From: Syntrophobacterales bacterium
GTDB taxonomy: Bacteria > Desulfobacterota > Desulfobaccia > Desulfobaccales > 0-14-0-80-60-11
Length of the DNA stretch: 43,632 bases
Assembly: GCA_023512475.1 (NCBI GenBank)
Contig: JAILZL010000025.1
Coordinates: 1 to 43,632 of the forward strand
Direction of reading: 5' to 3'
Shown: positions 1-20,239 of the stretch, one piece after another
How positions within the stretch are numbered: the first letter of the stretch is position 1
How the letters are laid out: each line of letters starts with the position of its first letter
The notes under the pieces: generated by a model
What the model saw: only the letters and a program-made list of their open reading frames with translations
The model's database searches: none
Told to the model about the DNA's origin: nothing
Program-made: the position numbers and the translations under genes

Positions 1-15
1 CCACCACGACCGTGT

Positions 16-123
16 GTCGCAATCCCCTCTCATCGGGTCACGGATTCCTACGATTGACCGGTTTCGGGCGAAGCTAGCGTTCCCCGAGTCGCAATCCCCT
101 CTCATCGGGTCACGGATTCCTAC
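16..123 (-). CRISPR. Edge of a CRISPR array, two 36-bp repeats
   Basis: Two identical 36-bp repeats lie at 16-51 and 88-123, separated by a 36-bp spacer (52-87). Bases 1-15 would be the end of a further spacer, so the array continues out of the window to the left. On the minus strand each repeat ends in ATTGCGAC, which resembles the 8-nt 5' handle (ATTGAAAC type) of crRNAs from type I-A/I-B and type III systems. I therefore infer transcription leftward, with the leader to the right of 123. The last repeat before the non-repeat sequence is not degenerate, as expected at a leader end. No cas genes are in the window, so the subtype is open. Only two repeats are visible, but identity over 36 bp with a typical spacer length is convincing. 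Confidence 0.87.
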
Positions 124-531: not shown

Positions 532-1587
532 ATGACCAGCCGCGACGGCGCCCTGCCGGGGGCGGCGGCCCGCCTGTTCGAGGAGCACTTCGACCAACTG
601 GCGGCCATGGTCCGCCGGCGGCTGGAGACGGTGGGGCGGTATCGGGCGGGGGAGGGCCGGGCGGCCCTGACGGCGGCGCTCCCGGAATGGGTGGAGGAGT
701 TCGGCCGGCTGCTCCGGGTGGTATACCGGCGGCGGTGGTGGGCGGCCCTGAGGGAGGAGGCCGGCTGGTATCTGGCGCTCCTGACGGCCCGAGGGCCCGG
801 AGGCGAGGCCGTGGACCTGCTCCTGGACAGCTGGGTCGTGGCCCTGCATGGGCTCATCAAACCGCCGGAGTGCCACCTGCTGGCGGAGCCGCTGCAGGAG
901 GTGCGGAGGGCGTTGCGGGACGGCCGGGTCCCCGGGGTAGAGCTGGCCCCGGCCCCGGTGGAGGTGGCCCGCCTGGTGGAGCTGCTCGTGGCCGGGGAGG
1001 GAGCCCGGGCCCAGGACTTCCTGGCCGCAGAGCTGGACCGGGGGGCCGCGCCGGGGGAACTCATCACCGCCAGGCTGCTGCCCGCCCTGGCGGAGATCGG
1101 CCGGCTTTGGCACCGGCAGGAGCTGGCGATCTATCAGGAGCACCTGGCCACGGAGACGGTGATGCGCCTGCTGCATTGCCTGCCCGCCCTGGCCCCCCGG
1201 CCGGCGGCCCCGGCGCGGAGGGCGCTGGTGTCCTGTGTGCCCGGGGACGAGCACCAGGTGGCGGCCCTGGCTTTGGCCACCTATCTGGAGCTGGAGGGCT
1301 GGCGGGTATATTCCCTGGGGCGCAGCCTGCCGGCGGAGGAGATTGCGGCGGCGGTGGCGGCTCTGAAGCCGGCGGCGGTGTTTCTGTCCCTGGCTCTGCT
1401 CTCCCGGCTGGAAGAGGCCCTGGCCACCGTGGCGCTGCTCACCGCCCGGGAGCCGCGGCCGGTGCTGGTGGTCGGGGGTCGGGGGGCGCGGCCGGCCCGG
1501 GAGCTCCTGGAGGCCGCCGGGGCCCGGGTGGCGGCGGATTTCCCGGAGGGCCACCGTTTGGCCCTGGGGGAGCTCAGCCATGCGTAG
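532..1587 (+). CDS. Cobalamin-binding domain protein (sensor-like)
   Basis: This 351-residue protein probably binds a cobalamin cofactor. An N-terminal helical region (residues 1 to about 165) is of unknown type. It is followed by a helical B12 cap domain (about 166-220) and a Rossmann-type B12-binding domain (about 228-350). Visible signatures are W193 and E203-H204 of the cap, as in CarH/LitR-type photosensors, and D239-x-H241 of the DxH motif that supplies the lower axial histidine. There is no MerR DNA-binding domain, so it is not a classical CarH. The ATG at 532 has GGAGG at 521-525 with a 6-nt spacer; an upstream in-frame ATG at 457 overlaps the -10 hexamer and is unlikely. Its stop overlaps the start of the next gene, tying it to the exporter operon. 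I infer that it senses B12, light or a corrinoid and controls the exporter or a partner protein. It could instead be a corrinoid methyl carrier. Confidence 0.8.
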   Translation: MTSRDGALPGAAARLFEEHFDQLAAMVRRRLETVGRYRAGEGRAALTAALPEWVEEFGRLLRVVYRRRWWAALREEAGWYLALLTARGPGGEAVDLLLDSWVVALHGLIKPPECHLLAEPLQEVRRALRDGRVPGVELAPAPVEVARLVELLVAGEGARAQDFLAAELDRGAAPGELITARLLPALAEIGRLWHRQELAIYQEHLATETVMRLLHCLPALAPRPAAPARRALVSCVPGDEHQVAALALATYLELEGWRVYSLGRSLPAEEIAAAVAALKPAAVFLSLALLSRLEEALATVALLTAREPRPVLVVGGRGARPARELLEAAGARVAADFPEGHRLALGELSHA

Positions 1588-2701
1588 CCGGGTGGCCCTG
1601 CGCCTGCTCCTCCATGACCGCTCCTCCACGGCGGGGTCGCTGTTGGGGGTGGTGGCCATTGTCTTTCTGGTGGGGCAGCAGCTCTCCATTCTCTTCGGGC
1701 TGCTGAACTACATGTCGGTGCTGGTGGATCACAGCGGCGCGGATGTGTGGATCACCAGCGCCCGGCTGCGGAACGCCGATGCGGGGGACCTCATCTCCGG
1801 CAGGTATCTGGAGAGGGTGATGGGGCTGCCGGAGGTGCAGTGGGCTGACCCTTTGCTTTTGGCCAACGGCCTGGTGCGCACGGCGGACGGCAGTTTTGAG
1901 GCGGTGCGTCTGGTGGGTCTCCGGCGGCCCCGACTCACCGGCGGACCCTGGGCCTTGGCCGCGGGGGAGGGGGAGGCCCTGCTGGACCTGGAGGCGGTGG
2001 CGGTGGACCGCCTGGACCTGGGGAAATTCGGGAATCCGGCGCTGCAAAGGGTGACGGAGATCAACGGCCGGCGGGTCCGTTTCGGGGCGGTGAGCTCGGG
2101 GGCCCGGGCCTTTCAGGGCACTTTGGTCTTTCTTTCCCTGGACAAGGTCAAGGAGGCGGCGGCCACCCCGCCGGGTCGGTATTCCGCCATTTTGGTGGGG
2201 CTCAAGCCGGGGGTGGACCGGGAGCGGGCCCTGGCCCGGCTGCGGGCCCTGCTGCCGGAGTGCGGGGTCTTCAGCACCCCGGAACTGTCCCGGCGCACGC
2301 AGCTCTACTACCTCACCAACACGGGCATCGGGGGCAGTTTCGGCTTTTCCACCTCCATAGCGGTGCTCATCGGGGTGGTGATCATCACTCTCACCATGTA
2401 TGCCAGTGTCTTGGGGCGCACCCGGGATTTTGCGGTGATGCGGGCGCTGGGGGCCCGGCGGCGGGATGTGGCGGTGGTGGTGCTCTGCCAGGCCCTCATG
2501 GTGGGGGCGGTGGGGATTTTTCTCGGCTTCCTGTGTCTGGCGGCGATCCTCAACGCCACCCGGGGCTCGGATATCCCCAGCTATATGCCGGCGTCCGTGC
2601 CGCCCCTGTTGGCGGGCATCACCCTTCTGGTGAGCCTGCTGGGCTCTCTGGTGGCCCTGCGCAAGGCCCTCCAGGCCGATCCGGCCTCGGTCTTCCATTA
2701 G
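1580..2701 (+). CDS. ABC exporter permease, FtsX/DevC type
   Basis: This 373-residue inner-membrane permease belongs to the FtsX/MacB/DevC superfamily. One transmembrane helix lies near residues 16-40, followed by a large periplasmic domain (about 45-245) and three C-terminal helices (about 255-280, 303-330 and 340-362). The sequence before the second helix pair (GRTRDFAVMRALGA) is the conserved coupling stretch of this family, normally E-x-A-x-x-R-A-x-G. The length matches DevC (about 385). The ATG at 1580 lies inside the last codons of the B12 protein gene, so translation is probably coupled. With the ATPase and adaptor that follow it forms a DevBCA-like exporter. The substrate cannot be told from sequence; known relatives move glycolipids, lipoproteins or peptides. 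Confidence 0.88.
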   Translation: MRSRVALRLLLHDRSSTAGSLLGVVAIVFLVGQQLSILFGLLNYMSVLVDHSGADVWITSARLRNADAGDLISGRYLERVMGLPEVQWADPLLLANGLVRTADGSFEAVRLVGLRRPRLTGGPWALAAGEGEALLDLEAVAVDRLDLGKFGNPALQRVTEINGRRVRFGAVSSGARAFQGTLVFLSLDKVKEAAATPPGRYSAILVGLKPGVDRERALARLRALLPECGVFSTPELSRRTQLYYLTNTGIGGSFGFSTSIAVLIGVVIITLTMYASVLGRTRDFAVMRALGARRRDVAVVVLCQALMVGAVGIFLGFLCLAAILNATRGSDIPSYMPASVPPLLAGITLLVSLLGSLVALRKALQADPASVFH

Positions 2702-2739
2702 CCTATGGCGGCGGGGGCCGGCAGAAGCGGACGGCGGTG

Positions 2740-3450
2740 ATGGAGCTTCAGCTCGAAGGCATCGCCCGGGATTTTTGGGACGGGCGGGAGCTCAGACGGG
2801 TGCTCTTCCCCCTGAACCTCAGCCTCACTCCGGGGGAGCTGACGGTGCTGGCCGGACCTTCAGGCAGCGGCAAGACCACGCTGCTGTCCATCATCGGCCT
2901 GGTGTTGCGGCCCTCGGAGGGGCGTATCCTCCTGGACGGCCGGGAGGTGACGGGCCTGCCGGATGACGCCGCTGCCACCCTCCGCCTGTCCCGGTTCGGC
3001 TTTGTCTTTCAGCAGCCCCTGCTCATCGAGGGCCTCACGGTGCGGGAGAACCTCTTCCTGGCGGTGGGCATCCAGGGCGGACGGATCACGGCGGCCATCA
3101 GGGGCCGGGCGGAGGAGCTTTTCACCTCCCTGGGGCTGCAGGGCACCGGGGACATGCTCCCCGCCATGCTCTCCGGGGGCATGAAGCAGCGAGTCTCCAT
3201 CGCCCGGGCTCTTATCCGGAATCCGGCCGTGATTCTCTGCGACGAGCCCACCTCCTCCCTGGATGCCGAAAACGGGCAAGTGGTCATGGACATCCTGAAG
3301 CGCATTGCGGTGGAGGAAGGCCGCCTCGTGGTGGTGGTGTCCCATGACGCCCGGGTCTTTCCCTATGCCGACCGGCTGGTGAAACTGGAGAACGGCCGCG
3401 TGGTGGCGGACACCCGGCCCCTGTCGGAAGGCGCGGAGGCCGGGGCATGA
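2740..3450 (+). CDS. ABC transporter ATP-binding protein, LolD/MacB/DevA type
   Basis: The 236-residue ATPase subunit of the exporter carries all the motifs: Walker A GPSGSGKTT near residues 43-51, a Q-loop (FVFQQP), the ABC signature LSGGMKQR, Walker B VILCDEP with the catalytic glutamate, a D-loop and an H-loop histidine (VVSHD). Its size and QQP/LSGG context fit the LolD/MacB/DevA group. The start is ATG 2740 or the GTG directly before it at 2737; longer versions run into the permease gene in a non-homologous frame. The gene starts 38 bp after the permease stop and ends in a 4-bp ATGA overlap with the adaptor gene. Confidence 0.9.
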   Translation: MELQLEGIARDFWDGRELRRVLFPLNLSLTPGELTVLAGPSGSGKTTLLSIIGLVLRPSEGRILLDGREVTGLPDDAAATLRLSRFGFVFQQPLLIEGLTVRENLFLAVGIQGGRITAAIRGRAEELFTSLGLQGTGDMLPAMLSGGMKQRVSIARALIRNPAVILCDEPTSSLDAENGQVVMDILKRIAVEEGRLVVVVSHDARVFPYADRLVKLENGRVVADTRPLSEGAEAGA

Positions 3451-4386
3451 AACTCCGCACCCTCCTTTTGCTGCTGGCGGTGGTGGCTGGAATCGTGGGG
3501 GCCACCGGGTATATTCTCCATTCCCTGCGGCAATCCTCCCGGCCGCCGCGCCCCGGGGAACCCGTGCGGCTGGAGGAGGCCCCCTTCCGGGTTTACGGCC
3601 TCATCGAGCCCTATGAGCGGGAGGTGTACGTGGGCCCCCTCCAGGCCCGGAGGGTGGTGGCCGTGTATGTGAAGGAAGGGGCGGCGGTACGGCGGGGCCA
3701 GCCGCTGGTGCGCCTGGATGACGACCTGGAGCGCCGGGCCCTGGCCGTGGCGGCCTCCCGCTTGGAAGAGCAGATCCGGAAGCTGGCCCTGACCCGGGAT
3801 ACCCTCCGGCGCCGGGAGGCCCTGTGGCAAAAGAAAACCATCCCGGAGTTCGATTACAGCCAGGTGCAGCTCACCGTCAGGCTGGAGGAGCAGCAGGTGG
3901 CCTCAGCCCGGGCGGAAATGGAGCTGCGCCGGGTGGAGCTGGACAAGCTCACCTTGTATCCCCCCATCGACGGAGTGGTCTATAAACTGGATGTCCGCCT
4001 GGGGGAACAGCTCACCCCCCAGGACTATAAGCGCATCATTCTGGGGCGCCCGGAAAAGCAGGTGCGGCTGTTCGTGGAGACCTTCTGGCTCCACCGGGTG
4101 AAGCCGGGGGATCGCTTTGTGGTCAAGGAGGCGGAGACCCTCAGCGAAATCGGCGAGGGGGAGGTCTATGAGCTCTCCCCGTATGTGGGGGAGCGAGTTC
4201 GGCCGATAAACCATTTCCTGAGGGTCTGTTGAGCTCTCCCCGTATGTGGGGGAGCGAGGCTTCAGGAGCGAGGACAGCCGGGAACGGCTGGACACCAAGT
4301 ATTGCCAGGCCCTCCTCCGGCTGCACCCCCGGCACCACCCGCCCCTGGGGCTCCTGGTGCTCTGCGAGCGCCCTTCCGGCCGTTAA
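3447..4386 (+). pseudogene. HlyD/DevB-type adaptor gene, broken by a 61-bp insertion
   Basis: This is the membrane fusion protein of the exporter. It has an N-terminal membrane anchor (residues 3-24), a lipoyl half-motif (about 65-90), a coiled-coil hairpin (about 95-165) and a second lipoyl half ending in the LYPPIDGVV stretch typical of HlyD family proteins. As it stands the frame reads to a stop at 4230-4232 (261 aa), the last ten residues being out of register. After a second copy of the stretch coding YELSPYVGER (4231 onward) the natural C-terminus continues in another frame to TAA at 4384-4386. It includes SEDSRERLDT, the kind of sequence DevB proteins have there. Removing one 61-bp unit gives an unbroken 292-residue frame. 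The truncated form lacks the last beta-barrel/membrane-proximal part and is probably inactive. An assembly error is possible. Confidence 0.85.
4169..4258. repeat. CRISPR-like unit inside a gene: 29-bp repeat, 32-bp insert, 29-bp repeat
   Basis: A 29-bp sequence (4169-4197) recurs exactly at 4230-4258, with 32 bp of unrelated sequence (4198-4229) between. The period of 61 bp and the 29/32 split are those of type I-E CRISPR arrays. The repeat begins TGAGCTCTCCCC and holds the palindrome CTCCCC-GTATGT-GGGGAG, close in layout to I-E repeats (GAG..CCCCG...GGGG). The flanks do not match the insert, so this is not a plain tandem duplication. One copy is native coding sequence of the adaptor gene. 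The simplest reading is off-target spacer integration by a Cas1-Cas2 complex, which copies its target exactly like this. Confidence 0.8.
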
Positions 4387-4403
4387 CCGGATGTCACCCG
4401 CTT

Positions 4404-4428
4404 CCCGGGGCTGGGGCGCCTCCCCGGG
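4404..4428 (+). terminator. GC-rich hairpin after the exporter operon
   Basis: CCCGGGG at 4404-4410 can pair with CCCCGGG at 4422-4428 across an 11-nt loop. It lies 18 bp after the adaptor stop and before the STAND gene. There is no U-tract, so intrinsic termination is doubtful. Confidence 0.3.
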
Positions 4429-4559
4429 GTAACCTCCTTTGGGGCTCACCCCCGCCGAAATGAAGCTCTCCCCCTCGAGGCGGCCTGTGACGCGGGGAGA
4501 TCCTGAGCCAGCCCGGTTTCTTGGACATAACGGATGAAAACCTGGAGGAAAATGAGCCT

Positions 4560-4895
4560 ATGGCGGATGCAAAAGAGATTCTGATCAGCCTGGCCCCGGA
4601 CCATCTGGAAGAGGTCATTCGCCGGGCGGTTGAGTTCCGCACGCGCGTTAACAAGAATTTACAAAAATTTTTTGAATTTATTCTGGAGCGTTTTATTTTT
4701 ATCAACGGCTTCAGAACGCCACTTACTGCCCCTGACCATCTCTTATGTCTGGAAATCAAAAGATTATTGAAAAAAAACCTGGCATCAAACCACTGGCCGA
4801 AGCAATTTTTGAGGTGTGGATGGAATCCCATCCGGAATTGCGCCAGGCTGTCACGGACTTTCTCTGCGACGAACAGATTGATCTTCTTGACCTGA
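4560..4895 (+). CDS. N-terminal piece of the STAND protein, or a small overlapping gene
   Basis: The ATG at 4560 follows GGAGGAA (4544-4550) at a good distance and opens a frame of 111 codons. The first 72 residues look like a real, helical, charged domain (MADAKEILISLAPDHLEE...). After the A8 run at 4770-4777 this frame becomes unlike protein (rich in N, W, R, C) and stops at 4895. The -1 frame from the same run continues smoothly as PGIKPLAEAIFEVW into the giant ATPase. I therefore think these residues are the true N-terminus of the next gene, joined by ribosomal frameshifting, by phase variation of the A-run, or through a lost base. A separate small protein of 111 aa is the alternative. 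The base composition here is AT-richer than the surroundings. Confidence 0.55.
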   Translation: MADAKEILISLAPDHLEEVIRRAVEFRTRVNKNLQKFFEFILERFIFINGFRTPLTAPDHLLCLEIKRLLKKNLASNHWPKQFLRCGWNPIRNCARLSRTFSATNRLIFLT

Positions 4896-7800
4896 TGGCA
4901 GCGCCAGAGGGCTCCGAAAGGCTGCCGCGCGAGGTGGTGGAGCCCGTGGAGCGCGCCTATCCTCATTTTCAGACCCGGGATATCCGATTGATGTGTCAAG
5001 GTCTGGCATGGGTGATCCCGGAGGAAGGGGCGATGAGAGTGGACGAGAAGGACCAGGAAACGGCCGGGGGCGGGGGGATGTCCCCCTTCTGGCTCTCGCT
5101 TCTGGAGAAAATGCGGCAGCTCCCCATGGATGCCCCCGAGTGGCAGGAGTTTGAGGCCTTCCTCGCCCGGGCCCGGGACCTGGCGGCGGAGAAGGAAGGG
5201 GAACGCCGGGAGTTTTCCGGGAGAAGGGAGCTTGAGGAGGCCTTGCAGCCGCTGACCACCGATGCCGTCCGCCAGGCGCTGCACTTTTTCGGTTTCAGCG
5301 ACATTTTTGCCTGGGAGGCGGAGGCGGTGCCCCCGGGGGAGGCGTCGGAGCTGGCGGCCAGGGTGCGGGATCTGGTGGAGAGGCTCCTGCGCCATGAGGA
5401 ACTCCGGGCCCGGACCCCTGCCACCCTCCCCGAAATGAAGGAATGGCAGGCGGCCTTGCAGGCCCTGGAGGACGAGATCCTGGCCCTCAAAGACCAGATA
5501 GGCTCCCGGCTGGCCCCGGAGCCCGAGGCCCCGGAGGCTTCCCCTGCCGCCGCGGTCCCGGCAGAGGAAGCCGGGGAAGGCCCCGGCACCCCGGAGCCGG
5601 AAAGCGTTCCGGGCGCCTCGGAGGTGCCTGAGGCGGAAACGGCGCCGGCGGCGGAGGAGGCCAGCATAGAGGCGCACTCGGAAGCCCCGGAGGAAGCCGC
5701 CCTCCCCCCTCCTCCGGAAGCAGAAAGAGTGCCCACGGAAGAGCCGGTGGAGCTGAAAGAGCCGGACAGCTGGGAGGCGTATTTCTGGGAGCTGGTGGCG
5801 CAGGATGATCTGGCGGGCGCCTACTGGCTCTGTCGGTCCCTGGAAGCCCAGGGCCTCTCCGCCCCCGTGCCCTCCCAGGTGATGGCGGCGGTTCAGGGTG
5901 TCCGCTGGCTCAAGGACGACGGCGAGGAGCTGGCCACTGATCTGAGCCGCCTGGCGGCCCAGGTGGACAGGCCCGGCAGGGACGATGCGGCGGTGATGCT
6001 GGGGTTGGCCGCCGCGCTCCGGGGCTGCCTCATCCTGCCAGCCAATGACATGTTCGGCTGGCTGCAGGTGCCCCACTGCCTGATGCCCGAAGGCGGGGGA
6101 CTGGTGGGCGCGGTCCAGGATTGTGTGCAGAAAGGCTGTCGCCTCTTTTCCCTGGATCTCCTGGAGGCCGGGAAGGCGGAAGAACGGGAAACAGCCATCC
6201 AGGAGGTGTGCCGGAAGGTGCGCGACCGGCTGGAAGAGGCCCAGGTGGCGCGCCTGAAGATCCGGCGGGCCTCCCAGGTATGGAATTACATGGCCCGCAA
6301 GGACCTGGCCGATTTCCTGAAGCCGGTAGTCGAAGACAACCGGAGCCAGGCGGCAGAAGTGCACCGGCAGCTGGAAAAATGGCGGGACCGGGCTTTCATT
6401 GAAGCCCAGATAACGCGCATTGACCAGGAGGTGACCGGCCTCAAGAAGCATCCCATTGTCGGGGAGCCCCGGAAACGCATGATCCGGGAGGTGCAGGAGC
6501 TCTGCCAGGAGGCTGAGCGCTGGTGCGATCTGGTGGAGCTGGACCGGAAGGTAAGGGAGCAGGGCGACTGGCTCTTCAACCAGGCGATGACCCTCCGGCA
6601 GCGGATACACCATTCCCTGTCGGCAGTGGAGGCGAGCCTGGAGCGCCTGAAGGAGCCTGCGGCCCTGGCCGCCGCGGCCTCCTGTCTCCGGCGTTCCCTG
6701 TCCCAGGTGAAGGCCACTTTGAAGCTCTCCCCCGGCACCGCGGAGGAGCACGACCCCTGGGCGTGGCTCTATCAGCCGGGACGTCCCCTGGAGACCGCCC
6801 TCCGCCGGCGCCTCCTGCTTCTGCCTGAAATCCCCCTGGATGAGGACTATGCCCCTGAGGAGACCGCCCTGCCCCTGGTGGCCCAGGCCCTGAAAGAAGC
6901 CGGACAGGCGAAGGATCCCCTCCTCCAGGCCTATGAATTCTACCTGGAAAAGGAAGACTACCGGATCCTGGAAAGCGACCTGCTGCCGGCCCTCAGCGGG
7001 CGCCCGGAGCAAAAGGAGTTGGAATGTCGCTATCATGACGCCCGCCACCGTTCCGCGCGCCTGCTGGACCAAAAGATCCAGGAAACCGGGACCGCCATTG
7101 AGCAGGCCCTGATGGACGGGCTCATTTCCGACCAGGAGCGCGCCGAGTATGACGCCTTCCTGTCGGCCCTCAAGCCGGAGGAGGAATCCACTATTCGCCC
7201 CCTGCACAGGCAATTGGAGGAAATTCTCCAGAAAATGAAGGAGGCCCGGCAGAGCCGCCTGGAGGACCTGCGGGAGAAATGGCGCCAGATGGAGAAACGC
7301 CTGCTCACCACCTCCCGCATTCCGGCGGCCGAGCGGGAGCGGGCCATTGCGGCCGTGCGGCGCAGTATGGCGGAGCAAGACACCCGGGTGGTGGAGGAAC
7401 ACCTGGCCCATCTGGACCAGGTGCTGGACGGCTCCCAGGGGCTGGATCCCGGGTGGTTCGACCCCCCATCTCCTTCCCGGGGGCGGGGAGTCGGCGATTT
7501 TCTCAAGGCCGCCCGGGCCATTGAAGACCACCTGACCCAGGGTCACTTTCAATGGCGGGAGATGGAAAGCTGCCTGCGCCAGGGGCGCAGTTGGGCCGGC
7601 CTCAGATTTGGCCCGGTGCCGCCCCCCCGGCGGGAGGAAGCCTGCGCGGCGATGCGGGCCTGGCTGGCCTTGAAGCAGGGAAACAGCGGCAATCAGAAAA
7701 ATCGGGAACACCTGCTGACCCTGTTGCAATACCTGGGTTTCAGCCTGGACACGGGGCCGAACCCCGCCGTGGTCATTGAGGAGAGGATGGCCCAGGGGCT

Positions 7801-10279
7801 CCGGGGGACAGGATACATGTGGGCCAGCAGCATCCTGGCCAAGCCCTTCCCCCAATTCGGCTCCCTGTCCGGCAACCACTACGATGTGATCGTCCTCTGG
7901 GACCGGCCCGACGCGGACACGGTGGCCAACAAGCTCCTGGAGAAGCGCCTGGGACAGCAGCAGCCGGTCCTCCTCCTCTATCTGGGCCGCCTCAGTGACC
8001 GCCGGCGCCTGCAGCTGGTGCGCCGGGAATTCTCCGCGGTGGCGGTTCTGGATGAAACCTTGCTCCTCTTTCTGGCCCAGGAGCCGGACAACCGCCTGCC
8101 CACTTTTCTCCGGTGCGCCCTGCCCTTTTCCACCCTGAACCCGTATACCCCCTTCCAGGCCGGAGACGTGCCCCCCGAGATGTTTTACGGCCGGCAGGAG
8201 ATGGTGCAGGAGCTCCTGAAGCCCTCCGGCAGTTGTCTGGTCTATGGCGGGCGCCAATTGGGGAAATCGGCCCTCCTGCGCCATGTGGCCCGGGAGTTCC
8301 ACCATCCCGAACGGGGTCAGTATGCCCGGGTCAAAGACATCAAACTGGTGGGCGATCCCAAGGCTGACCTCCCGCCTCGGACCATCTGGCGGATTCTCCG
8401 GGATGCCCTTAAGGAAATGGGGCTGTTCTCCGAGCGCCTCACCACCGAAAATCCCGCGGAGATTGAAAAAAAGCTCCGGAATCTGCTGGCGGAGCACCCC
8501 ACTTACAAGATCATGGTGCTGTTCGATGAGGCCGACAATTTCTTCGAGGCCGACGTCAAGGACAATTTCCGGGAGGTGGAAAGATTCCGGATTCTGATGT
8601 CCGAAAGCGGGCGCCGTTTCCGGGTGGTGTTTGCTGGGTTGAAAAACGTGCTGCGATTCCAGGGACTCCCCAACCAGCCCTTTGCCCATCTCGGCGCCCC
8701 CCTGTGTGTGGGGGCCCTGGAGCCGCAGGCGGCCCGGCAATTGGTGAAAGAACCTCTGGAGGCCCTGGGGTATGTCTTTGAGGATGACTCCCTGATTCTC
8801 AAGATCCTGTCTTACACCAACTACCATCCGGGTCTGATCCAGCTCTTCTGTCGAACCCTCCTTCAGAACCTGCGGGGACGACCTTTTATCCTGTCGTCAG
8901 ACAGCCATGGTCCCCTGCCGCCCTACCCCATCAGCCGGGAGTGGGTGGAATCCGTCTATCGGAACGACGCCATCAGAAGGGAAATCAAGGCCCGGCTGGA
9001 ATGGACCCTGGACTTGGACGAGCGTTACCAGGCCATTGCCTGGACCATGATCGTGGACCAGATGGAGGCCCGGGACAGCTATGCCCGCTCCTATGGGGCC
9101 GGCGAAATCCTGGACCTGGTCAAGGGTTGGTGGTCCAAAGGCTTCAGTCACACCACCGGCGAACAGATCCGGACGTTTCTGGAGGAAATGTGCGCCCTCA
9201 ACGTCCTGGTGCGCACCAGCTCCGGGACGTACCGGCTCCGCAGTCCCAACCTGGTCCGCCTTTTGGGGACGGAATCCGAGATTGAGGACCGCATCCTGAA
9301 CCTGGCGAACAAAACCCCGTCCGAGCCTTTTGATGAAAAAGGGCATCATGCCCCCCTGGATGAGGCGGCCCGACGCTACAGCCCCTTCCTGTATTATCAA
9401 AGCGCCCGACTGAAACAGGAAAGGTTCGGGGTCGGCCTGATCTTCTCCTCAGAAGCCCTGGGGCTGGATCTGATCCCCCAGGCGGTGGGCCGGTTCATCC
9501 CCCGGGAATTTCCCCCGGAGCTGGCCGATTGCTCGGAAATTCCCGGCACCATCACCCGAGGGACGGACTTATCCCCCTGGCTGAACCGCTACCTGGGGCA
9601 GCAGGCCCGCAAGGAAAGGCTCATCCTTTATCGGCTCCTCACCGGGAGCCCCGAAGAGGACCCGGGCAGTCTGGTGTCCGAGGCCATTTCCCTCTGCCGG
9701 TCTCACCAGAAGACCCGGACAAAGTGGTTGCGGATATTTTTCCTCTTTTCCCCCCAGGCGGCCTGGCGTTGGCTCTCCTGGGACGAATATCAGACCTGGG
9801 AGAACGCCGCGGACGCCTTGGTCATCACGCAGCGCTGGAATGCCGTGGGGGTGCGCCAGCGGCTGGAGCAGACCGGCAAGCAGGATACCGAGGAGATCGT
9901 CCGCCGGGTCCTGGAAGTCACCGGCGGCTGGCCCCTGTTGCTGGATGAATTATTCGACCGCTGCGGCGACCGGGATACCCCCCTGCCGGAGTTGACCCAA
10001 CTGGCCGCCGACCTGACGAACCCCCGCCATTCCCTGCACCACCGGTTTAAAGCCGCCCTGGGAGTGGGCGAGGAGTCTTTCCCCTCCCGGGTGCTCCGGC
10101 ATCTCCTGCGGGAAAGGGAAGTGGAGCGGGAACTGTTCACTCCCGAGCTCGTGGAGGAGGAGGCCTCCCGGGACCAGTGGGACCGGGCCGTGGAGCATCT
10201 GGCGCGGTTGGGGTGCCTCGAGGAGAGGGAGGGGGTGCTGCGCCTTGACCCCGTCGTCCTCACGGTCCTGGAGGCCTGA
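4745..10279 (+). CDS. Giant STAND/AAA-type ATPase, candidate defence protein
   Basis: This 1844-residue protein has no close named family that I recognise. The order is: helical N-terminus (1-255); a linker rich in P, A and E (about 259-339); a long helical, partly coiled-coil region (about 345-985); an alpha/beta domain (about 1010-1130, with NHYDVIVLW); then an NTPase domain opening with NPYTPF and FYGRQE. Walker A is GGRQLGKSA (about 1168-1176) and Walker B is IMVLFDEAD (about 1256-1264). Winged-helix-like and further helical modules follow to the end. The NTPase resembles ORC/STAND-type switches such as those of Avs proteins. No Shine-Dalgarno precedes ATG 4745, and a stop at 4733-4735 closes the frame upstream. 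Translation thus either enters from the frame of 4560 or begins at ATG 4820, which follows GAGG. The HEPN-motif gene starts 3 bp after the stop. I infer an antiphage or abortive-infection sensor; this is not demonstrated. Confidence 0.72.
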   Translation: MSGNQKIIEKKPGIKPLAEAIFEVWMESHPELRQAVTDFLCDEQIDLLDLMAAPEGSERLPREVVEPVERAYPHFQTRDIRLMCQGLAWVIPEEGAMRVDEKDQETAGGGGMSPFWLSLLEKMRQLPMDAPEWQEFEAFLARARDLAAEKEGERREFSGRRELEEALQPLTTDAVRQALHFFGFSDIFAWEAEAVPPGEASELAARVRDLVERLLRHEELRARTPATLPEMKEWQAALQALEDEILALKDQIGSRLAPEPEAPEASPAAAVPAEEAGEGPGTPEPESVPGASEVPEAETAPAAEEASIEAHSEAPEEAALPPPPEAERVPTEEPVELKEPDSWEAYFWELVAQDDLAGAYWLCRSLEAQGLSAPVPSQVMAAVQGVRWLKDDGEELATDLSRLAAQVDRPGRDDAAVMLGLAAALRGCLILPANDMFGWLQVPHCLMPEGGGLVGAVQDCVQKGCRLFSLDLLEAGKAEERETAIQEVCRKVRDRLEEAQVARLKIRRASQVWNYMARKDLADFLKPVVEDNRSQAAEVHRQLEKWRDRAFIEAQITRIDQEVTGLKKHPIVGEPRKRMIREVQELCQEAERWCDLVELDRKVREQGDWLFNQAMTLRQRIHHSLSAVEASLERLKEPAALAAAASCLRRSLSQVKATLKLSPGTAEEHDPWAWLYQPGRPLETALRRRLLLLPEIPLDEDYAPEETALPLVAQALKEAGQAKDPLLQAYEFYLEKEDYRILESDLLPALSGRPEQKELECRYHDARHRSARLLDQKIQETGTAIEQALMDGLISDQERAEYDAFLSALKPEEESTIRPLHRQLEEILQKMKEARQSRLEDLREKWRQMEKRLLTTSRIPAAERERAIAAVRRSMAEQDTRVVEEHLAHLDQVLDGSQGLDPGWFDPPSPSRGRGVGDFLKAARAIEDHLTQGHFQWREMESCLRQGRSWAGLRFGPVPPPRREEACAAMRAWLALKQGNSGNQKNREHLLTLLQYLGFSLDTGPNPAVVIEERMAQGLRGTGYMWASSILAKPFPQFGSLSGNHYDVIVLWDRPDADTVANKLLEKRLGQQQPVLLLYLGRLSDRRRLQLVRREFSAVAVLDETLLLFLAQEPDNRLPTFLRCALPFSTLNPYTPFQAGDVPPEMFYGRQEMVQELLKPSGSCLVYGGRQLGKSALLRHVAREFHHPERGQYARVKDIKLVGDPKADLPPRTIWRILRDALKEMGLFSERLTTENPAEIEKKLRNLLAEHPTYKIMVLFDEADNFFEADVKDNFREVERFRILMSESGRRFRVVFAGLKNVLRFQGLPNQPFAHLGAPLCVGALEPQAARQLVKEPLEALGYVFEDDSLILKILSYTNYHPGLIQLFCRTLLQNLRGRPFILSSDSHGPLPPYPISREWVESVYRNDAIRREIKARLEWTLDLDERYQAIAWTMIVDQMEARDSYARSYGAGEILDLVKGWWSKGFSHTTGEQIRTFLEEMCALNVLVRTSSGTYRLRSPNLVRLLGTESEIEDRILNLANKTPSEPFDEKGHHAPLDEAARRYSPFLYYQSARLKQERFGVGLIFSSEALGLDLIPQAVGRFIPREFPPELADCSEIPGTITRGTDLSPWLNRYLGQQARKERLILYRLLTGSPEEDPGSLVSEAISLCRSHQKTRTKWLRIFFLFSPQAAWRWLSWDEYQTWENAADALVITQRWNAVGVRQRLEQTGKQDTEEIVRRVLEVTGGWPLLLDELFDRCGDRDTPLPELTQLAADLTNPRHSLHHRFKAALGVGEESFPSRVLRHLLREREVERELFTPELVEEEASRDQWDRAVEHLARLGCLEEREGVLRLDPVVLTVLEA

Positions 10280-19386: not shown

Positions 19387-20239
19387 AACGCCTCCCGAAC
19401 AGGGGTTGAGAGTGCAGGAATGCCGTCAGTCGGTCCACCGAATGCTGAAAATAGTGCGGGTCGATTTCAAAACCCACACAGGAGAGCCCCAGTTTCATGC
19501 AGGCCAGGGCCGTGGTCCCGAGCCCCAGAAAGGGGTCGAGAACCAGGCTCACCCTTTCCAGACCGTGGAGCTTAAGGCACATTTCCGGCAGTTTCACCGG
19601 GAAGGTGGCGGGGTGGGGGCGCTCCCGCTCCCGGCTCTGGATGGTCTCATAAGGGATGAACCAGGTGTTGCCCCGGCAGCGTCTGTCCCGGGTGGCCGCC
19701 TTCCAGCGGCCGATGTTGGACTTGTCTTGGTAGGGCACCCCGATGGCCAGCCGGTCCAGGGGGACCTGGCCGGTTTTGGTGAGGTGGAAGATGTATTCGT
19801 GGCAATCATTCAAAAAGCGCTGGCCGCCGATGGGCTTGTAATGGCCGAAGGTGACGGGGGCGGTATCGCCCTCAGAGACCGCAATGCTCTTGATCCAGTG
19901 AATGGTGTTCTGGAGGTAAAAGTGGGGCCTAAGCCGCAGGAGAATCTCCAGGGGCCCCCAGGGGTCGGTGGGTTTGCCCCCCACATTGAGGAAAAAGGAG
20001 CCCGTGTCCTTGAGCACCCGCCTGATCTCCAGGGCCACCTCCTCCAGCCAGGCCAGGTATTCCTCCCGGGGGCGGGAGTCATCATAGGTGCCGTAGCGCA
20101 GGCCCAGATTGTAGGGGGGGGAGGTGACCACCACGTCCACGGAGCTCTCCGGCAGCCTCCGGCGCAGGCCGGTGAGGCAGTCCTCCTGAAAGAGGGAGAG
20201 GGTCTGCCCTCCGGGTGGGTGCCAGTGAAATTCCGGCAT
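19373..20239 (-). CDS. DNA (adenine-N6 or cytosine-N4) methyltransferase, orphan
   Basis: This 288-residue SAM-dependent DNA methyltransferase has the catalytic TSPPYN (39-44) before the SAM-binding [12 protein letters not shown] near the C-terminus, the order IV then I that defines the beta class. FEIDPHYF follows as motif II. TSPPY occurs in both N4-cytosine and N6-adenine enzymes, so the target base is open. The central region holds a putative target-recognition stretch (about 130-220). The ATG at 20239 begins the conserved region; longer frames upstream look non-coding and overlap the glycosyltransferase gene. No restriction endonuclease is nearby, so it is probably a solitary regulatory or remnant methylase. 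It overlaps the nitroreductase gene by 14 bp. Confidence 0.85.

Follow-up and report, generated by a model that had tools for sequence, protein, structure and literature searches.

The window analysed here is the whole stretch of 43,632 nucleotides, and near its left end it carries genes of an ABC exporter in which the gene for the periplasmic adaptor is interrupted by a short repeat-insert-repeat unit. The family name of the exporter is approximate because every DevABC-type match, including both adaptor matches (RND_mfp and DevB), falls below the curated cut-offs. The features are as follows.

16..123, no strand assigned: two 36-nt repeats of another CRISPR type at the contig end, spacing 72; not the source of the unit
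1580..2701, + strand: DevC-like ABC exporter permease, upstream neighbour (TIGR01185, E 6e-18, below cut-off)
2704..3450, + strand: DevA-like ABC exporter ATPase, upstream neighbour (TIGR02982, E 3e-56, below cut-off)
3447..4232, + strand: truncated ORF of 261 aa, HlyD/DevB-type periplasmic adaptor of an ABC exporter (RND_mfp E 9e-23, DevB E 3e-10)
4169..4197, no strand assigned: first of the two target copies, identical over 29 nt; the true duplication is probably the 28 bp of 4170-4197
4198..4229, no strand assigned: insert (spacer), 32 nt, or 33 nt if T4230 is counted in
4230..4258, no strand assigned: second copy of the target, whose opening TGA stops the shifted reading frame
4259..4386, + strand: displaced 3' part of the adaptor gene, with 31/38 residues identical to the sister up to a CER motif

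Further along, 4745-10279 encodes a protein of 1,844 aa, whose second half holds an AAA-type ATPase domain, the sole Pfam match of the protein at E 0.001.

A direct repeat search confirmed the central observation of the earlier note, an exact 29-nt repeat (4169-4197 and 4230-4258, spacing 61) around an insert of 32 nt. The 29-mer has just these two copies in the 2.78-Mb genome at up to three mismatches (0 for a reversed-pattern control), and the insert is single-copy in its own genome at the same tolerance. The insert had been described as unlike either flank; its best ungapped match anywhere in the window is indeed 19/32, and it matches the adjoining 32-mers at 10/32 and 7/32. Both strands of the unit are predicted to fold into hairpins. 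A transposable element with target-site duplication was considered and rejected: the insert of 32-33 bp is too short for a gene, and positions 3900-4600 hold no inverted repeats of at least 12 nt (seed 9).

The spacing of 61 is 1 mod 3, and the adaptor ORF is closed after 261 aa by the TGA at 4230-4232, with which the second copy opens. Joining the flanks without the unit gives a frame of 292 codons, as had been proposed, and the tail motif of this frame is present and in frame in all nine distinct relatives compared at the site, where it reads Y[VM]G.R[DN]FR[ST]ED. These are L002 (the same as L062, from genome G002), L063 (from G022) and L003-L009. The site is uninterrupted in all nine, none of them having the unit or any native sequence in place of the insert, which speaks against the possibility, raised in the earlier note, that the insert is native coding sequence. 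Compared with the sister, the adaptor gene has 127 identical, 70 synonymous and 53 changed codons before the site and 19, 14 and 9, respectively, after it; a conserved Asp directly after the insertion site is Gly in the window adaptor. Identity of the two copies and continued conservation of the displaced 3' end make the insertion look recent on the time scale of the genus. The L002 adaptor (79% protein identity) has the DNA GAGCTCTCCCCTTACGTGGGGGAA at its empty site, so that the CCCC...GGGG dyad at the target is probably older than the insertion. The exporter would have lost its function through truncation of the adaptor.

The type I-E system of the genome

The adaptation genes of type I-E, which the earlier reading required somewhere in the lineage, are present in the genome itself. 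Contig C5 carries cse2, cas7, cas5, cas6e, cas1e and cas2e, all above NCBIfam cut-offs (cas1e with 374.9 bits against a cut-off of 215.6), and a piece of cse1 covering the first 174 of 450 positions lies at the edge of contig C7; this inventory leaves out cas3. IHF alpha is unconfirmed, as the best himA match (81.5 bits) is below the cut-off of 120.25. The native I-E array begins 16 nt past the cas2 stop codon (L021:4834-4851), and a further stretch of array is found on C62. The same placement is seen in three family relatives (L109-L111) and leaves no room for a long separate leader.

The native repeat, GTTGTCCCCACGCACGTGGGGGTGAACCG, is 29 nt long and has 28 copies genome-wide at up to three mismatches, of which 27 end in G. 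One native repeat (L058:1168-1196) ends in A rather than G, at the position whose base is expected to derive from the PAM of its spacer. In the C62 array, 22 of the 25 spacers measured are 32 nt long. Since the native repeats are 29 nt and the spacers mostly 32 nt, the window unit has the native 61-nt metrics, and the reading of 29 + 32 = 61 as a type I-E unit stands. According to passages in two papers, E. coli type I-E takes up a 33-bp protospacer and derives the last repeat base from the PAM (PMC10011333), and 33-bp spacers with a PAM-derived G are described as well (PMC9699676); the 29 + 32 of array bookkeeping is therefore equivalent to a 28-bp duplication plus a 33-bp insert. This is probably the true division of the window unit, with one of the 29 bases coincidental. 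The unit thus shows the 28-bp target duplication and 33-bp insert that characterize off-target I-E integration, at a location outside any CRISPR array that is empty in relatives. It is not a canonical type I-E array: its repeat is at best 16/28 identical to the native one, it has one spacer, and it lies inside a gene.

The array at the left end of the window had been noted as different, so that a second system would be involved. Its repeat is indeed of another kind, 36 nt at a spacing of 72. Besides the I-E repeat, the genome has at least two CRISPR repeat types of 36-38 nt (window 1-123, C34, C51, C17, C10 and C25), and several contigs end at arrays.

Units with the same spacing in the genus

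To see whether the unit could be due to chance, we scanned for exact direct repeats that are isolated, 19 nt or longer and spaced at 36-160, where isolated means at most two runs, itself counted, within 300 bases; denser clusters were dropped before counting. In the window's own genome (G000) this removed arrays (L249, L022, L023, L058) and a poly-G end (L269); in G001 it removed an array in L276 and the low-complexity L291, and, elsewhere, L207 and L147 (viral set) and L071 (other relatives), which are multiples of other periods. The poly-G run begins at position 4910 of L269, at the end of contig C4; it exceeds 70 bases and is probably a sequencing artefact.

About 1.18 Mb of the own genome was scanned (42% of 2.78 Mb); it holds four isolated exact repeats in the range of 26-31 nt, every one with a spacing of 61:

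Window:4169, 29 nt
L243:16644 on C54, 28 nt
L248:19713 on C20, 30 nt
L329:16888 on C23, 28 nt

Two genomes of the same genus were scanned likewise. Both repeats of this length class in G002 (752,336 bases) are spaced at 61 and 60 (L297:12408 and L305:19559, 28 nt each), and the sole one in G001 (397,207 bases) is a low-complexity repeat at 41. A viral control (1,186,154 bases, 135 loci) gave three, at 84, 127 and 129, and other relatives (158,407 bases) gave no isolated exact repeat of 26-31 nt. Thus, six of the seven repeats in the genus fall on 60 or 61, for which the probability is about 1e-10 under uniform spacings of 36-160; this value needs to be read cautiously, as the length and spacing class was fixed after the first sites had been seen, although 61 is the value that the array predicts. 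The earlier note had regarded the window unit as a natural case caught in a genome. That it is natural holds, but it is not singular: with three more units in the sampled part of its own genome and two in a sister species, 'caught once' understates what is found.

A looser scan (at least 24/28 identical, spacings 40-110) gave 17 pairs in G000, with six at 61 (one of them in an array), one at 60, two at 59 and the remainder, for the most part arrays, at 55, 72, 74 and 96. It gave five in G001 (40, 72, 72, 75, 81), ten in G002 (42, 60, 61 twice, 72, 73 three times, 74, 110) and four in the viral set (57, 72, 78, 109). The other isolated exact runs in the own genome are array pieces (L021, L024, L059 and window:16) and repeats in L240 (spacing 141, 23 nt), L249 (78, 44 nt) and L318 (83, 21 nt), together with two on C54, L243:11797 (21 nt, spacing 61) and L243:11933 (24 nt, spacing 59), which are probably decayed units. 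The surrounding stretch, L243:11790-12100, has several decayed repeats at spacings 59, 61 and 68, is largely missing in both sister genomes, and is possibly a cluster of older insertions.

Units and adaptation genes do not coincide in the two sister genomes. G002, with two units, has no cas1e match at 1e-30, and G001 has cas1e and no unit in the 397 kb scanned; G002 may have lost its I-E system, or the system may sit in missing sequence.

Among the units outside the window (L243, L248/L256, L329, L297 and L305), L243 alone allowed a clean empty-site comparison. Its unit lies close to the 3' end of an NtrC-type response-regulator gene, and both G001 (L286) and G002 (L298) have a 61-bp gap at the unit as well as small further gaps downstream. 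The L329 unit falls in a gene of the lipid A acyltransferase family (PF03279, matched by the upstream piece with E 2.5e-7) and breaks its frame; joining the flanks gives an open frame, which the unit closes. The L248/L256, L297 and L305 units are probably intergenic, judged by ORF lists; the family scan around L256 and L297 covered one neighbour each.

Near-exact isolated repeats of about 30-38 nt were also seen at spacings of 72-74, in G002 (L304:1337, L308:4482, L341:11566, L342:7102 and L352:3190) and in G001 (L276:7389 and L284:10717). With a 34-nt window (at least 27/34), all nine isolated G002 pairs lie at 59-61 or 72-74; a 28-nt window adds 42 and 110, and the viral set clusters at 54. 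The repeats at 72-74 are unlike the two 36-37-nt repeats of the own genome, with L276 a weak exception, and may be what is left of ectopic units from a different CRISPR type.

Target sites and the origin of the inserts

To compare targets with the native array, we scored the 28-bp sites and the 5 nt upstream of them against the native leader-repeat (leader gaagt followed by GTTGTCCCC...), keeping for each the frame and orientation that scored best; 40,000 random sites from G000 and G002, scored in the same way, served as background. The six sites resemble the leader-repeat individually to different degrees (P = 0.008 for the window, 0.0013 for L243, 0.012 for L256, 0.0013 for L329, 0.034 for L297 and 0.075 for L305) and strongly when taken jointly (P = 7.8e-8 with the leader, P = 7.8e-6 for the repeat alone, both by Fisher's method), in a test that was chosen after seeing the sites. 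The window target alone has a moderate likeness to the native repeat (best 16/28, P = 0.005). A CCC...GGG dyad is in register in five of the six sites, L243 being the one without it, compared with 3.2% of background 28-mers. In the palindrome earlier noted in the duplicated sequence, GGGG stands at positions 18-21, in register with the native repeat (frame 4170-4197), as it does in L243 and L329. This register fits the ruler idea for type I repeats, as put forward in a passage of PMC6895254.

Frame and orientation of the window unit depend on how it is scored. In the most repeat-like frame the insert starts with T, where the native equivalent is G in 27 of 28 repeats, and the frame that gives G is less repeat-like. 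Reverse orientation is favoured by the 29-nt test (13/29 against 9 forward), forward by a free 28-bp frame (16/28 against 13, repeat alone), and the two tie at 17/33 when five leader bases are included. The 28-nt target of the L305 unit in G002 (19559-19586, spacing 60) is nearly self-complementary, CCCATCTGCACATGGG.

The protospacer that the earlier note hoped to find for 4198-4229 did not turn up in phages, plasmids, viral contigs or the other 394 genomes of the phylum. Among 395 genomes searched at up to three mismatches, the own copy of the insert is the only one; plasmids gave no match, phages one at chance level (E 4), and IMG/VR no exact 21-mer. Seeds of 16-17 nt led to 16 contigs, the best full-length match having 8/32 mismatches, and a 14-mer scan to at least 120 loci, the best of the 119 checked having 9/32. 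The insert is putatively of phage or plasmid origin.

Of the six inserts searched in phages, the only convincing case is the 33-nt insert of L297, which matches Microvirus MT135431 at 29/33 (BLAST E 2e-4) and MT135406 at 28/33 (BLAST E 1e-2). In the frame of the match the phages read EEYDGSTVEEA and EEFDGSTVEEA and the insert EEFGCSTDEEA (hand translation); the match is no more than 300 bases away from a gene whose annotation is minor capsid or DNA pilot protein. The triplet at the G end of this insert is TGG in both phages, as against AAG in E. coli. For L305 the best listed match has E 0.03 (Rhodobacter phages, over 29 bases) and is borderline; for L243, L329 and L256 the best E among the matches listed is 0.1, 0.4 and 5. 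Exact IMG/VR seeds numbered 0 for L297, 1 for L243 (9/33 mismatches) and 0 for L256. The native array, searched against phages for its PAM, had no match there; against plasmids it hit 34 records at 60-80% identity, 20 of them from Thermus, which are taken to be arrays of other organisms (10 were viewed, none annotated).

Probable off-target integration and its alternatives

From the assembled sequence, we conclude with high confidence that the window unit is an off-target spacer integration by Cas1e-Cas2e which truncates the HlyD/DevB-type adaptor. The reading is that of the earlier note, and it is supported by the I-E genes, the native 29/32 metrics, the empty sites in all nine relatives, the single-copy insert, the recurrence of like units at 60-61, the microvirus match of L297 and the likeness of the target sites to the leader-repeat; Cas1e-Cas2e is the likely agent. 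Against it count the failure to find a protospacer for the window insert, the moderate likeness of the window target to the native repeat, the T in place of G in its best frame, and the distribution of units and cas1e in G001 and G002. In the proposed mechanism, the I-E Cas1-Cas2 integrase would take a prespacer of roughly 33 bp and insert it into the chromosomal adaptor gene rather than into the first repeat of the array, at a site that already bore a CCCC...GGGG dyad like that of a repeat. Strand transfer at two staggered positions, 28 bp from each other, and filling of the gaps would then duplicate the target on both sides; the outcome would be a one-spacer neo-CRISPR unit and an exporter adaptor whose frame is shifted and truncated.

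The genome has two further Cas1 genes, one I-C-like (C10) and one I-D/I-G-like (C73), and either adaptation module might have made the unit. We consider this very unlikely, as the remaining arrays seen in the genome have repeats of about 36-38 nt and spacings of 69-74 rather than 28-29 nt and 61, and the target sites look like the I-E repeat. Less likely again is end joining of a staggered double-strand break with filler DNA: such repair can leave a duplication around filler, but it predicts neither a spacing of 60-61 at six separate places nor repeat-like targets nor a 33-bp insert that matches a phage. We give still less weight to an artefact of assembly or binning. The assembly is in 73 contigs and the poly-G run at the end of C4 is a sign of raw sequencing artefact there; however, the insert has no other copy from which it could have been recruited, the 29-mer differs from the array repeat, and a second genome of the genus has units of this type. 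That the unit is a tandem-repeat polymorphism or other ordinary coding variation of the adaptor can be dismissed with near certainty: nothing speaks for it beyond the repeat itself, nine of nine relatives lack the unit, the insert is unlike both flanks and the frame is broken.

Off-target integration by Cas1e-Cas2e is an event of a kind already known. Nivala, Shipman and Church are said to have found in 2018 that off-target integration in E. coli creates neo-CRISPR loci at repeat-like sites, and reportedly listed Yersinia pestis and Sulfolobus islandicus as species with putative natural examples. Their work, as far as it is represented in passages of other papers, shares with ours the integration by Cas1-Cas2 into non-array regions of the chromosome and a gene as the site (potG is named in a passage apparently citing that study). 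It differs in that here a natural lineage with its own system has several units in a genome and in a sister, with gene truncation and sister empty sites documented and a native array 16 nt behind cas2. Passages elsewhere state that Cas1-Cas2, when overexpressed, is able to insert spacers outside arrays (PMC11788318, with the 2018 study as its source) and that E. coli Cas1-Cas2 integrates outside the array in vitro, with IHF giving specificity (PMC10011333). The ectopic acquisition described in a passage on Streptococcus type II-A is likewise integration at a wrong site, but the spacers are misplaced within arrays (PMC7999890), whereas the unit here is outside any array. S. thermophilus Cas1-Cas2 integrates in vitro at non-CRISPR plasmid sites that, in the passage concerned, also resemble the leader-repeat junction (PMC6895254); that case differs in being type II-A, in vitro and likely made up of half-site events. 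We found no other report of further natural units outside arrays in the open-access literature, a search mostly outside subscription papers that does not prove absence. The recurrence in one natural lineage is the interesting part.

On balance, we lean towards the view that, in this genus, off-target integration acts repeatedly as a natural mutagen: I-E adaptation would time and again place 33-mers that it has captured, one or more of them phage-like, in repeat-like chromosomal sites and break genes, perhaps helped by an array that begins 16 nt behind cas2. The second, older class of decayed units, spaced at 72-74, may be the trace of a like tendency in another CRISPR type. In the passages cited, off-target integration is described for overexpressed or in vitro systems. 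A natural lineage with several units and with empty sites in sister genomes allows direct tests of how frequently CRISPR adaptation causes mutations in the host that carries it, which sequence alone suffices to recruit Cas1-Cas2, and whether new CRISPR arrays arise by off-target integration.
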